This document shows, piece after piece, positions 7,194 to 48,719 of a stretch of 64,000 bases of DNA. A model generated the notes under the pieces. It searched no databases. It saw only the letters and a program-made list of their open reading frames with translations, and had not been told where the DNA came from. The DNA lies in contig JOEL01000055.1 in assembly GCA_000720995.1 (NCBI GenBank), positions 1 through 64,000 of the forward strand, read 5' to 3'. Position numbers and translations under genes: made by a program. The first letter of the stretch is position 1, and every line of letters begins with the position of its first letter. Source of the DNA: Streptomyces celluloflavus (GTDB lineage Bacteria; Actinomycetota; Actinomycetes; Streptomycetales; Streptomycetaceae).

Positions 7194-7319
7194 CACGGGC
7201 ACCCCCGAAAGCCACGGGCACCCCCGAAAGCCACGGGCACCCCCGAAAGCCACGGGCACCCCCGAAAGCCACGGGCACCCCCGAAAGGCACGAGCACACC
7301 CGAAAGGCACGGGCACCCC
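7194..7319. repeat. Tandem array of a 19-bp unit
   Basis: Six full copies and one partial copy of CACGGGCACCCCCGAAAGC are arranged head to tail without spacers. Copies 1-4 are identical; copies 5 and 6 carry substitutions, and copy 7 breaks off after 12 bases. The array lies between the convergent DUF2267 and HTH genes. The unit is not a multiple of three and the array is not coding. Confidence 0.93.
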
Positions 7320-33190: not shown

Positions 33191-35377
33191 ATGGTGGATC
33201 CCATCTCGATCGGTGCGGTCACGGCGGTCCTGGGCACGGTGACGATGTCCATGGCCAACGAGGCCGGGAAGCGGGCCTGGGAATCGGCCGGCGTACTCGT
33301 CCGGCGGATCGCCGGGCGGGAGACGCCCGCGCCGGACGGCAGCGAGGCGCGGGCGGCCCTGGCCGGACTGCTGGTCGAGGGCGCCCAGCGCGATCCGGCG
33401 CACGCCCGCGCCCTCGCCGCCTGGCTGAACGGCGCCCCGCGGCCCGGCGGCGCCGACGCCGTACCGCGTCAACTCCCCGTCTCCGTAAGGTTCTTCACCG
33501 ACCGGCAGGACCCGCTCAAGCGACTCGACCGGGAGGCCGGGCGGCCGGCCGACGGGCGGCCGCGGCTCGCCCTGGTCCACGGCCCGGACGGTATCGGCAC
33601 CAGCGCGCTGGCCGTCCACTGGGGCAACGCCCACCTGGCACGCTTCCCCGACGGGCAGCTGTACGCGGACCTGCGCGGCCCGGCGCCGGACGGCGCGCTC
33701 GACCAGGCCACCGTGCTGCGCCTCTTCCTCCGGCAGCTGGGGTTCCCGGACGGGGAGATCCCGCCGGCCGTCGAGGACCGTGCCGACCTGTACCGCACCA
33801 GCGTCGCGGACCGCCGGCTGCTCGTCGTCCTCGACCACGCGCAGTCCGCCGCCCAGGTCCTGCCGCTGCTGACCTCGGCGGCCGGGGTGTTCACGATCGT
33901 GGTGGCCCGCCGCCCGCTGAGCGGCCTGGACGCCGTACCGGTCCCCGTCGGCCCGCTGCCCGAGAAGTACGCCCGCGACCTCCTCGGCCAACTCACCGGC
34001 GAGGAGACCCTCGCCGCGGCGCGGGCCGCGCTGCCGGAGGTGCTCGCCCGGTGCGCCGGCTCGCCGTTCGCCCTGCGTGCCGCCGCCGTACGGCTGGCGG
34101 AGCCGGCCCGCCCGCACCAGGAGCCGCCCGTGCGCGACGACGACCCCGTCCACACCGCCGCCGAGGACGCCTACCAGGACCTCGCCCCGGACGCCGCGCG
34201 GCTCTACCGCCTGCTGGCGCTGCGCCCCTGGCCCGCCATCGGCCCCGGCCTGGCCGCCGCCACCGCGCAGCTCACCGCTCCCCGGGCCGCGGCGCTGCTC
34301 GCCGAACTGGCCGCCCACCGGCTGCTGGAGACCACCGCCACCGGCCACTACCGCTACCGCCCCTCCGTACGGCGGCACGCCGAGACGGCCGCCGCCCGCG
34401 AGGACGGCATCGCCGGCTGCACCGCCGCGGTGACCCGGGCGGTGGCCGCCTCACTGCGGTTCGCGGTACGTGCCGACCGCGCCGTGCTCCCCCAGCGCTG
34501 GCACCTGGGCCCGCTGTACGCGACGCTGGAGCCGGGCCCGTACGCCGACCAGGGCGAGGCGCTGGCCGCCCTCACCGGTGAGCTGGGTCGGCTCCTCGAA
34601 GCCGTCCGGGCCGCCGAGGAGTTCGCAGATCCGGACTCCGTCTGCCAGCTGTGCGAGGCGCTGTGGGCGGTGCAGCTCAAGGCGGGCCGCCATGACGAGC
34701 TGCTGCCCGCCCTCCGCGCGGGGGTGCGGGCCGCGGACGCGCTGGAGGCCGCGGCGCACGCCACCGTCGGCGCCCCCGCACCCGCCCCCGCCGCCGACGG
34801 CCTCGCCGCCCGCTCCCGGATGGCCGGGCGGATGCACACCCAACTGGCGCTGGCCCTCACCGAGGTGCGGCACTACGAGGAGGCCGAGTCCGAACTCCGC
34901 GCCGCCGCCGAGGCGGAGCGCCGGGCCGGCCACCTCCGCGGCCGGGCCACCGCCGTCGAGACCCTGGGCCTGCTCCGGCTGCGGCAGTGGCGCTACCGGG
35001 AGGCGTACGACCACTTCGACGAGGCCGCCGCGCTGCTCGCCGGTATCCCCGAGGACGGTGAGGGCGCCGCCGATCTGCCGCGCGCCCGTGCGCTCCTGGA
35101 GCGCCACCGCGGGCGTGCGCTGCGCGGCCTGCTCGACTGGGACGACGCCCGGGAACGGCTGGGGCGCGCCCTGCGCTTCTTCCGGGACAGCGCCGAACCG
35201 TACAACACCGCCCGCACCCTCACCGACCTCGCCGAGACCCACCTCGACGCCGGTGACCCGGCCGCCGCGCTGCCCTTGATCGACGAGGCGGCCGCCCTGC
35301 TCCAGGAGGAAGGGGCGGCCTTCCCCCTCGGCCTCCTCCGGGCGTTGCGCGAGCGGTGCGTGGCGGAGGCGGAGTGA
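33191..35377 (+). CDS. NB-ARC/STAND-like protein with TPR repeats and a degenerate P-loop
   Basis: A 728-residue protein with AfsR-like organisation but no DNA-binding domain. Residues 1-45 form a short N-terminal module seen in many Streptomyces STAND proteins (AVTAVLGTVTMSMANEAGKRAW). An NB-ARC-like ATPase region follows, with Walker A reading GPDGIGTS (131-138): the essential lysine is replaced by threonine. The Walker B-like LLVVLDH and a winged-helix region (DLAPDAARLYRLLALRPWP) remain. The C-terminal ~280 residues are TPR helices (ALTEVRHYEEAESELRAAAE, WRYREAYDHFDEAAALL). Nucleotide hydrolysis is doubtful. It converges with the repeat-split gene 30 nt downstream. Function unknown; signalling or defence sensing is possible. 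Confidence 0.83.
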   Translation: MVDPISIGAVTAVLGTVTMSMANEAGKRAWESAGVLVRRIAGRETPAPDGSEARAALAGLLVEGAQRDPAHARALAAWLNGAPRPGGADAVPRQLPVSVRFFTDRQDPLKRLDREAGRPADGRPRLALVHGPDGIGTSALAVHWGNAHLARFPDGQLYADLRGPAPDGALDQATVLRLFLRQLGFPDGEIPPAVEDRADLYRTSVADRRLLVVLDHAQSAAQVLPLLTSAAGVFTIVVARRPLSGLDAVPVPVGPLPEKYARDLLGQLTGEETLAAARAALPEVLARCAGSPFALRAAAVRLAEPARPHQEPPVRDDDPVHTAAEDAYQDLAPDAARLYRLLALRPWPAIGPGLAAATAQLTAPRAAALLAELAAHRLLETTATGHYRYRPSVRRHAETAAAREDGIAGCTAAVTRAVAASLRFAVRADRAVLPQRWHLGPLYATLEPGPYADQGEALAALTGELGRLLEAVRAAEEFADPDSVCQLCEALWAVQLKAGRHDELLPALRAGVRAADALEAAAHATVGAPAPAPAADGLAARSRMAGRMHTQLALALTEVRHYEEAESELRAAAEAERRAGHLRGRATAVETLGLLRLRQWRYREAYDHFDEAAALLAGIPEDGEGAADLPRARALLERHRGRALRGLLDWDDARERLGRALRFFRDSAEPYNTARTLTDLAETHLDAGDPAAALPLIDEAAALLQEEGAAFPLGLLRALRERCVAEAE

Positions 35378-35406: not shown

Positions 35407-37162
35407 TCAGCCGAGCGGGGTGACCGTGAAGTGGTGGGCGGTGGAGCCCGTCCGTACGGTCAGTCCGTCCGCCACCAGTTCCGCCGGTGCCGTGCCGCCG
35501 GCCAGTGCGGCGTGCAGCGCGGAGGCGCCGGCGGCCGGATCGGCGGCCGACGGCGCGGCGGTGAGCCGCAGCAGATCGCCCGCGCGGGTGCGTACGGTGC
35601 AGTCGCCCGGCCCCGTGACGTACGCGGCGAGCGCGCAGTGCGGCCACCGGGCCAGTACCTCGGCGCACCAGTTGGCCGGTGGTCCCAGCCGCGGATCGGC
35701 CGCGTCGCCGTACCGGAAGATCACATCTGCCGACGCCGCCGCCCCGGGGTCCGCGGTGTCCTCGTGCACCGCCAGATGCGCCGCCACGTCTCCCGCCGAC
35801 CCCTCGCCCGGCGGTTCGCCGGCCGGTTCGTGGACCGGTTCCGCGAAGCGGCGCAGCGCGACCTCGCCCGCCCGCGGCAGCCGGGTCAGTACCCGCAGCG
35901 GGGCGGTGCGCAGCGGCGGATCGTACGGCGGCAGGGGCAGCGGGTCGAGCAGCGCGGGCCAGGGGGGCTCGGGAATCCCGATGAGGCGGTAGAAGACCTT
36001 CCGCAGCAGCGCCGCCGACTCGCCCGGCGCGGAGGTGGTCAGCGCCGCCGGGCCCGGCAGCGGACGGTGTCCGTCGAGCAGCGACTCGACCTGCCGCCGC
36101 AACGGCGCCCGTGGATCGAGACGCGGCGCCGTGCGGACGAACTCCGCCACCGGGGAGCGCGGGTCCAGCCCCGAGAGCGGTGCCGCGCCCAGGAGGACGG
36201 GGACGCCGAGCGCGGCCGCGTAGTAACTCACCGAACCGTGGTCCCCGATCACCGCGTCCGCGGCGAGCAGCGCCTGCCGCCACCCCTCCAGGGGGTCGAG
36301 CAGTGCCAGGCCGCCGCGCCGCGCCCGGTGCAGCCAGGCCCTGATCTGCCCGGGGCCGTGACCGTGCCAGATATTGGGGTGCAGAACGGCCGCGAGCCGG
36401 TACTCGTCGGCGGGGAGTTCGCCGGTCAGCCGGGGGAGCAGGGAGGGCAGCAGGTCCTCGGCGCCGCCGTCACCGAAGAGCGATTCCGGGTTCCAGGTGG
36501 AGTTCAGGACGAGCAGCCGCTGTCCGCGCCGTACGCCGAGGGTCCGGCGGAACCGGTCGCGGTGCGGACGGGCGGCCAGCATCCGGTCGAAGCAGGGATC
36601 CCCGCCGAGCACGGCGGTCGGCGCCGCCGACGGGCACGCGGCCCGCAGCCGTACCAACTGCTCGGGATGGGAGAGCACCATCGCGTCCGCGATGGGCGTA
36701 CCGTCCGCGAGCAGCCACTCCGGCGACATCCCGAAAACAGGGGCGCCCGATCCGGTGTCGGGTGTCCGGCTCCCGGCTCCCGGCTCCCGGCTCCCGGCTC
36801 CCGGCTCCCGGCTCCCGGCTCCCGGCTCCCGGCTCCCGGCTCCCCGCTCCCCGCTCCCCGCTCCCGGCCGAGACGGCCAGGGCGACCGGTGTCCGCAGCG
36901 CCTGCTCCCACGGCAGCACCGGCACCGCCACCTCGGCGAGCAGCTGGGCCACCCCGGCCTGGAACGGCGACGACCCCGTACAGGTCGCCAGCAGCTGCAC
37001 CCTGGTGTCGTCGCGGAAGAGCGGCAGCACATCCAGCAGCCGGGTCGCGGACGTGACGTTGTGCACCACGAACAGCACCCGCAGGCACCGCCCCCGGGTG
37101 TCCCACCGCCCGGACTCGTCCCCCACCGGGACGCGTATCCATCCGTCCGGCCGCTCGTCCAC
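35407..37162 (-). pseudogene. GT-B-like protein gene split in two frames by a 7-bp repeat tract (possibly phase-variable)
   Basis: The N-terminal part (RVLFVVHNVTSATRLLDVLP, then LLAEVAVPVLPWEQAL) reads in one frame from GTG 37162, which follows GACGAGGGGG; GTG 37201 is an alternative. The conserved C-terminal part (FGMSPEWLLADGTPIADA, LVLNSTWNPESLFGDGG, AVIGDHGSVSYYAAALGVPV) reads in another and ends at 35407. Between them are fourteen 7-bp units (36768-36865). Because 7 is not a multiple of 3 and the tract has no stop in any frame, losing one unit or gaining two joins both parts in one frame. The C-terminal motif resembles GT-B enzymes such as CDP-glycerol glycerophosphotransferases, but the function is unknown. 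Alternatives are a plain pseudogene, or a repeat count wrong in the assembly. An internal ATG at 36729 could start the C-terminal part alone. Confidence 0.7.
36768..36865. repeat. Heptanucleotide tandem repeat inside a coding region (14 units)
   Basis: On the plus strand eleven GGCTCCC units (36768-36844) are followed by three CGCTCCC units (36845-36865). Read on the coding (minus) strand all three frames give the same 7-residue repeat GAGSREP without stops. This is the design of slipped-strand contingency tracts. Confidence 0.95.
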
Positions 37163-37262
37163 CCAGCCCCCTCGTCGCCTGTCCCGCCACACTGTCACCA
37201 CGCGTACGGCCAGTCACGATAGCCGCGGGCGCGAGGGAGGGTGCCGTCCGGTGGTGGTAGCG

Positions 37263-48095: not shown

Positions 48096-48719
48096 CTGAC
48101 GGCCTCCTGTCGTGGTCCGCCGCCCGCGGTGGCGGGCTCTGCGATGACTCCATCCTGCGCCGCCGGGCGGCCGGGCGCAGTAGGGCACACTCCCGAAGCG
48201 AGGTAGCAGAGAACTGCACCTCGACGTGGCGCGGTCCATGTCGCAGGCCGGCGATCAGGCCCCGGGCGAGGGGCCGTTCGCGGGATGGTCAGGGATGGCC
48301 GACGAGCTCACCGATGACTCCGGCGGAGAAACCCCGGGAGAGCCACGTGGTCGGCTCGCCGCCCGGCGAGCCCGGTCTTCTCCACATCGACCCGCATCTG
48401 ACGTGCGAGGGCCGACTCGCCGCAAGCGCTCAACGGTCTGGGAATTGCCGAACGGACCCTCGGACAGCGGGAGTTGAGGCAGCTACGGACGATCCGGATC
48501 TCCCCCCGGCTCCCCGCACCGGAGACGGGCACCGGCCGAGCGCCCACCACGGCGCGGGACGGCCGCCGGTCCCGTACACCACCGGCCATTGACCACCGGC
48601 CACCGGCCACCGGCACCGGCCGCCAACCGCCGGCACCGGCCACCAGCCACCGGCACAGGCCACCAGCCACCGGCACCGGCCGCCGCCACCGACGGTGACC
48701 CCCGCCGCCCCCGCCCCCG
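48096..48719. other. Gene-poor region with a 20-bp tandem repeat
   Basis: More than 600 bases between two left-facing genes. No open frame has both a ribosome site and plausible coding sequence. The left half (48200-48480) may be eroded coding DNA but no family is recognisable. The right end holds the repeat at 48601-48680. Confidence 0.5.
48601..48680. repeat. Four 20-bp tandem units
   Basis: Units beginning CACCGGCCACCGGCACCGGC, then CGCCAACCGCCGGCACCGGC, CACCAGCCACCGGCACAGGC and CACCAGCCACCGGCACCGGC, built from smaller CCACCGG motifs. Located just after the stop side of the module 2 response regulator. Confidence 0.75.

Follow-up and report, generated by a model that had tools for sequence, protein, structure and literature searches.

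The window, i.e., the whole stretch of 64,000 nucleotides of Streptomyces celluloflavus DNA analysed here, contains a split gene on the minus strand that runs from about position 37201 to position 35407, with a tandem array of heptamers lying between its two halves (Table 1). The open reading frame of the N-terminal part opens at a GTG codon at position 37201, the putative start. A reading made from the sequence alone had placed 14 units at positions 36768-36865 and had described them as splitting the gene into an upstream part in frame 1 mod 3 and a downstream part in frame 0 mod 3. Analysis with TRF and of the open reading frames, from 37201 and to 35407, respectively, confirmed both statements. 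On the gene's strand the tract comprises approximately 11.3 perfect copies of GGGAGCC and three GGGAGCG copies located on the gene's 5′ side. As proposed earlier, it is open in all three frames, and each frame encodes an identical heptapeptide, except across the three variant units, where the proposed sameness breaks down. Five perfect units occur in the 8.68-Mb S. celluloflavus genome only at this tract, and a perfect three-unit stretch is found at one further place, which argues against a chance origin of the array.

Table 1. Positions of the split gene, its repeat tract and the facing gene in the window
Feature	Position	Strand	Remarks
Heptamer tract of GGGAGCC units (read on the gene's strand), presumed switch	36766..36868	minus	TRF: period 7, about 14.7 copies, 97% matches
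N-terminal coding part in frame 1 mod 3, comprising the first half of the GT-B fold	36869..37201	minus	lacks model positions 97-118 at the tract end
C-terminal coding part, frame 0 mod 3	35407..36765	minus	intact, 452 codons plus stop
ATPase/TPR protein resembling part of AfsR, facing neighbour	33191..35377	plus	on the opposite strand in 78 of the 80 named loci

The AfsR-like neighbour is located beyond the end of the split gene, tail to tail with it, in 78 of the 80 loci L039-L118. On three plasmids (L197, L198 and L201) an ATP-binding protein is annotated at the neighbour position, and in the pair of S. anthocyanicus strains considered below only short open frames are annotated there. The sigma-factor and CU044-type genes present in the window were found within the 3-kb flanks of none of the 80 loci, indicating that they are not part of the locus.

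A homologue of the split gene is present in 71 of 150 Streptomyces genomes, including the window's own, and in 40 of the 150 at 60% identity or more. A scan of 84,980 species genomes yielded 126 relatives; the 80 best of these became the named loci L039-L118. A search of 100 relatives brought in members from one further family of the order. The loci were aligned to a 118-position model of the N-terminal part, which ends with LSHGVGYTKRL, and to a second model covering the start of the C-terminal part. Both halves are present in 127 of the 128 loci L009-L136. Homologues without the N-terminal part, which the sequence-only reading had named as evidence against a switch, did not emerge, as 121 of 122 non-paralogous loci have both parts and in the remaining one, L116, the N-terminal part is cut by the contig end. 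Removal of L116, 12 exact duplicates and six paralogues left 109 distinct loci, the window (L009) included, in which the two gene halves flank the same codon. For the frame statistics a cleaned set of 102 loci was employed, from which L012 (insertion in the tract), L030 and L113 (runs of N), L076 (extrapolated start of the C-terminal part), L031 (second frameshift) as well as L009 and L027 (partial, shortened N-terminal part) had been removed. In L012, approximately 1 kb of foreign DNA, which by eye resembles an insertion sequence, lies between the halves beside a 13-unit array.

Ten of the 102 cleaned loci contain no real array. Among the 92 with at least three units the period is 7 bp in 82, 8 bp in four, and 10, 5 and 6 bp in two each, so that in 90 of the 92 the tract within the gene is built of a unit that is not a multiple of three, and the two loci with the 6-bp period also contain heptamers. 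These 92 loci comprise 24 different unit sequences; L113, outside the cleaned set, has a 4-bp unit with 18.8 copies in the longest run. Relative to the N-terminal part, the C-terminal part lies in frame 0, 1 or 2 in 58, 25 and 19 of the 102 loci, respectively, that is, 58 are in frame and 44 out of frame, and in-frame alleles make up more than one third of the total. With nine or more units the distribution is 15, 10 and 8, and equal thirds are not rejected (chi-square p 0.31), and nine of the 10 loci with fewer than three units are in frame. The excess of in-frame alleles may indicate that the on state is favoured, or that short tracts are stuck in frame.

When the on/off state of 109 loci was mapped onto a tree of the C-terminal part, 37 changes were required compared with 36.0 (sd 2.9) for shuffled labels, i.e., there is no phylogenetic signal. 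In contrast, the unit sequence (97 loci) required 38 changes compared with 61.9 (sd 1.8) for shuffled labels, a strong phylogenetic signal. Thus, inheritance of the unit sequence follows the tree, whereas that of the state does not. In line with an earlier suggestion to compare repeat counts, we observed that copy number varies from one relative to another, and also between two strains of a single species. Among 23 pairs of relatives sharing at least 90% identity, the tract length differs in 21 and the frame in 13. Moreover, L085 and L090 share 93% of their C-terminal part, yet carry the units ACGCCGG and AAGCCGG, respectively, throughout their tracts, which suggests contraction of the array followed by regrowth.

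Of seven matching plasmid records, six were retrieved. The S. anthocyanicus strains NBC_01372 (NZ_CP109572.1, L199) and NBC 01668 (NZ_CP109229.1, L200), both represented by complete plasmid records, harbour tracts of 69 bp and 125 bp, respectively, which are exactly eight units or 56 bases apart. The C-terminal part is in frame 0 in NBC_01372 and in frame 2 in NBC 01668, leaving the gene whole in the former and split in the latter, and the records are annotated correspondingly with a gene of 1,770 bases and of 1,311 bases. The flanks of the tract show one difference in 749 bases upstream and none in 1,685 bases downstream (1 in 2,434), and the records diverge farther out. This one pair of near-identical alleles differing in both copy number and frame is the strongest single piece of evidence for a switch. 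In two S. coelicoflavus plasmids, which are 94-95% alike around the tract, length and frame differ as well.

All 49 out-of-frame alleles among the 109 distinct loci retain a C-terminal part of normal length. The median dN/dS of this part is 0.27 for pairs of in-frame alleles (20 pairs), 0.25 for mixed pairs (25 pairs) and 0.23 for pairs of out-of-frame alleles (six pairs only), whereby the pairs share members and are not independent. From these sequence comparisons, out-of-frame alleles appear to be under the same purifying selection as in-frame alleles, although this selection could date from in-frame ancestors.

The family extends beyond Streptomyces. When 246 genomes of the class were searched with a profile, 17 proved to contain it at E ≤1e-20, and in two other families of the class (f19 and f20) seven members carry heptamers at the same codon, namely GAAACCG, CGGGAAA, AAACAGG, ACAGGAA (twice), GGAAAGC and CAGGAGT, and the other members carry none. 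Four of these seven are in frame and three are split, two of the latter with only three to four units. In a related family of the same order, 9.4 units of 7 bp in L130 and 5-bp units in L126 and L129 leave the gene out of frame, and L127 contains no array at the gene. The longest of all tracts also belongs to this related family: L128, from a single-contig genome, has 39 AGCCGGG units and is in frame. A repeat common to the whole fold was considered and rejected, as six paralogues (L131-L136, about 40-46% identity) are arrayless and in frame; likewise, two paralogues in the window's own genome (L162 and L163) have no array at the switch codon. The paralogues do not provide a clean control, because AGCCGGG arrays occupy this codon in L160, which is in frame, and in L161, which is split, and L159 carries one just upstream of the conserved part, at a contig end.

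The AlphaFold model of the protein (pLDDT 87.9) matches the GT-B fold in Foldseek and VIA-align comparisons. The fold lies near those of TagF/TarL and of UDP-GlcNAc 2-epimerases, and the epimerases match as well as TagF. The TagF/TarL wall-teichoic-acid transferases (PDB 3l7k and 8va1) are among the closest known systems. At the sequence level, 16 of 36 members match PF04464 (Glyphos_transf) at E ≤1, with a best value of 3.4e-5, and among eight members scanned singly four match at E ≤0.1, one of them (L118) above the curated cut-off, and the two halves from the window gave no match to this profile. The switch gene likewise had no match in NCBIfam, the sequence profile retrieved no PDB entry at E ≤10, and neither the gene nor its neighbour matched a PADLOC defence model. 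The HG motif H110-G111 is invariant in 36 of 36 members, and its correspondence with H444/H300 was judged from ranges only. The enzyme is probably a TagF/TarL-like transferase acting on a surface glycopolymer. Its substrate and surface role are uncertain, because the epimerases fit the fold equally well. The earlier proposal of a surface-glycosylation type of function agrees with the predicted GT-B fold as far as the kind of enzyme is concerned.

The allele in the window differs from most of the family. It lacks approximately 22 conserved residues (model positions 97-118) directly before the tract, including the HG motif; compared with its nearest relatives, L039 (S. chattanoogensis, C-terminal part 80% identical to that in the window) and L042, the segment SFGGQL...LSHGVGY adjoining the tract is absent. 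The N-terminal part reaches model position 116 or beyond in 107 of the 109 distinct loci, the exceptions being the window and L027. Together with L076, these two belong to one clade of six, and all three have deletions directly beside the tract, on the 5′ side in two and on the 3′ side in one. In L027, from a single-contig genome, a longer stretch is gone on the same side as in the window, and in L076 the array passes straight into a later part of the C-terminal half. The genome containing the window is a 193-contig draft with repetitive sequence at this spot; either the tract is also a site of deletions, or the window is misassembled here. As assembled, with the possibility of misassembly, no copy number yields an intact gene. 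Hence, the earlier arithmetic that 13 or 16 units would fuse the two parts is right, but loss of one unit would align the frames and probably not restore a working enzyme, since SFGGQL...LSHGVGY with the HG motif is gone, unless the draft is wrong. Judged from its sequence, the window allele is probably a disabled member of the switch family, off by frame and by the deletion beside the tract. That it is a true locked-off remnant rather than a working switch is likely, given the loss of the conserved segment and the similar deletions in its clade-mates L027 and L076, while the intact C-terminal part and a possible misassembly at a repetitive spot of a 193-contig draft speak for caution.

For the family, we consider it highly probable that this is a conserved phase-variation (contingency) locus controlling a GT-B transferase, with the tract as its variable element. 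This reading combines the anatomy of the gene, the conserved place of the tract, near-identical alleles in opposite frames, purifying selection and the predicted fold. The phase-variation switch postulated by the sequence-only reading therefore holds at the level of the family, where the conserved tract and the strain pair speak for it, but is not supported for the copy in the window, from which a conserved segment is absent. Mechanistically, units would be gained or lost, most likely by slipped-strand mispairing and presumably in a reversible manner, and the larger C-terminal part would be shifted in or out of frame with the N-terminal part. In frame, the enzyme would be produced whole, with a flexible loop whose length varies; out of frame, the product would be the N-terminal part with a wrong-frame tail. 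As the enzyme is probably TagF/TarL-like and acts on a surface glycopolymer, a population would mix cells with and without one surface modification, which might plausibly serve as a phage receptor.

The main alternative is a simple broken gene: copies out of frame would be pseudogenes, and the repeats, grown by mutation bias, would be no more than inert filler of a loop that tolerates them. The deletions beside the tract in the window copy, L027 and L076, the insertion in the tract of L012, the out-of-frame state of L110 with under two units left, and the occurrence of AGCCGGG arrays elsewhere all speak for decay. Nevertheless, inert coding filler should often come in threes, whereas only two of 92 periods are multiples of three; the C-terminal part is of normal length in 49 of 49 out-of-frame alleles, dN/dS is similar across the on and off classes, and the state is reshuffled across the tree. 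We therefore regard general decay of the gene as improbable. Even less probable is that programmed ribosomal or transcriptional frameshifting joins the halves, such that each copy number gives some whole enzyme. Conservation of both halves in all states speaks for this, but instead of a common slippery site with one fixed shift we found 24 units of several lengths and three frame states, and depending on the relative, joining the halves would take no shift or a shift of one or two. Similarly, an error of sequencing or assembly that conceals a count always in frame is hardly credible. Repeats are difficult for short reads, and the tracts of L030 and L113 contain runs of N; however, most tracts are shorter than 130 bp, the tracts in the two complete S. 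anthocyanicus plasmid records are 56 bases apart, and in genomes of at most three contigs six of 18 loci are out of frame, which indicates that draft error alone does not cause the out-of-frame alleles.

Phase variation of this locus in the family would add to a kind of regulation already known. Repeat-driven switching has been studied mainly in pathogens, but published phase variation of a G tract in S. coelicolor pglX affects the phage growth limitation system, with switching measured (PMC4365076). The two cases are alike in that a change of repeat length within a Streptomyces gene turns it on or off; pglX concerns a single-base tract, a phage-defence methyltransferase and one system, whereas here mostly heptamers, a GT-B transferase and many species are involved. 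The earlier statement that no heptamer switch is established in Streptomyces may hold for heptamers, whereas for repeat switches in general this published account stands against it. No heptamer switch in Streptomyces was found in the literature searched, most subscription papers lying outside its reach. In Haemophilus influenzae, tandem seven-base units have been proposed or shown to vary the expression of surface genes such as hmw1A and hmw2A (PMC2651432). Those tracts are mostly promoter tracts of a pathogen with a constant unit, whereas here the tract lies within the gene and the unit turns over. A survey of 1106 prokaryote genomes (PMC3711429) describes conserved frame-transition clusters, in which phase-variation clusters were classed via known phase-variable genes, a method of finding conserved phase-variable genes across genera that resembles ours. 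The main text of a 2025 review contains no mention of Streptomyces, and the review points to a gap in knowledge on soil bacteria (PMC11868660). As far as the literature was searched, the following are new: the gene and the host group, a position and unit length that are deeply conserved with changing letters, and two strains in opposite states.

With moderate confidence, we propose in addition that this is an ancient contingency locus, in which selection in several families of Actinomycetes, free-living soil bacteria, has maintained a mutable tract of non-triplet units, mostly of 7 bp, at a single codon of a surface-polymer transferase. The letters would have turned over repeatedly, and the conserved trait would be hypermutability itself rather than any sequence. 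If so, antibiotic-producing soil bacteria would possess a long-standing switch for bet-hedging at the surface, and the family would constitute a series in which mutability is conserved and sequence is not. The locus is common in Streptomyces, and the two S. anthocyanicus strains, with opposite states of an otherwise near-identical gene, represent a natural experiment.

A dispersed repeat element was also considered and rejected. Specificity of the repeat for this locus holds for ACACCGG, of which five perfect units occur in eight of 150 Streptomyces genomes, in seven of the eight only at the switch gene. It fails for AGCCGGG, of which five perfect units occur in 31 of the 150 genomes; at least 21 such places lie outside the switch gene (L137 and L139-L158), and none of these 21 matches the family model. 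Growth of heptamers is therefore not peculiar to the switch gene. At L144, L147 and L153 the AGCCGGG array starts just after a stop codon, and approximately 38 AGCCGGG units are located at G094:C1:6436694-6436959 (L194-L196) in a Streptomyces genome without a detected homologue of the switch gene. The window itself contains two further arrays, a 19-bp tandem array at 7194-7319 with 6.6 copies and 95% matches, and an imperfect array at 48579-48691 whose units resemble CCACCGG, with periods of 7 and 20 bp.
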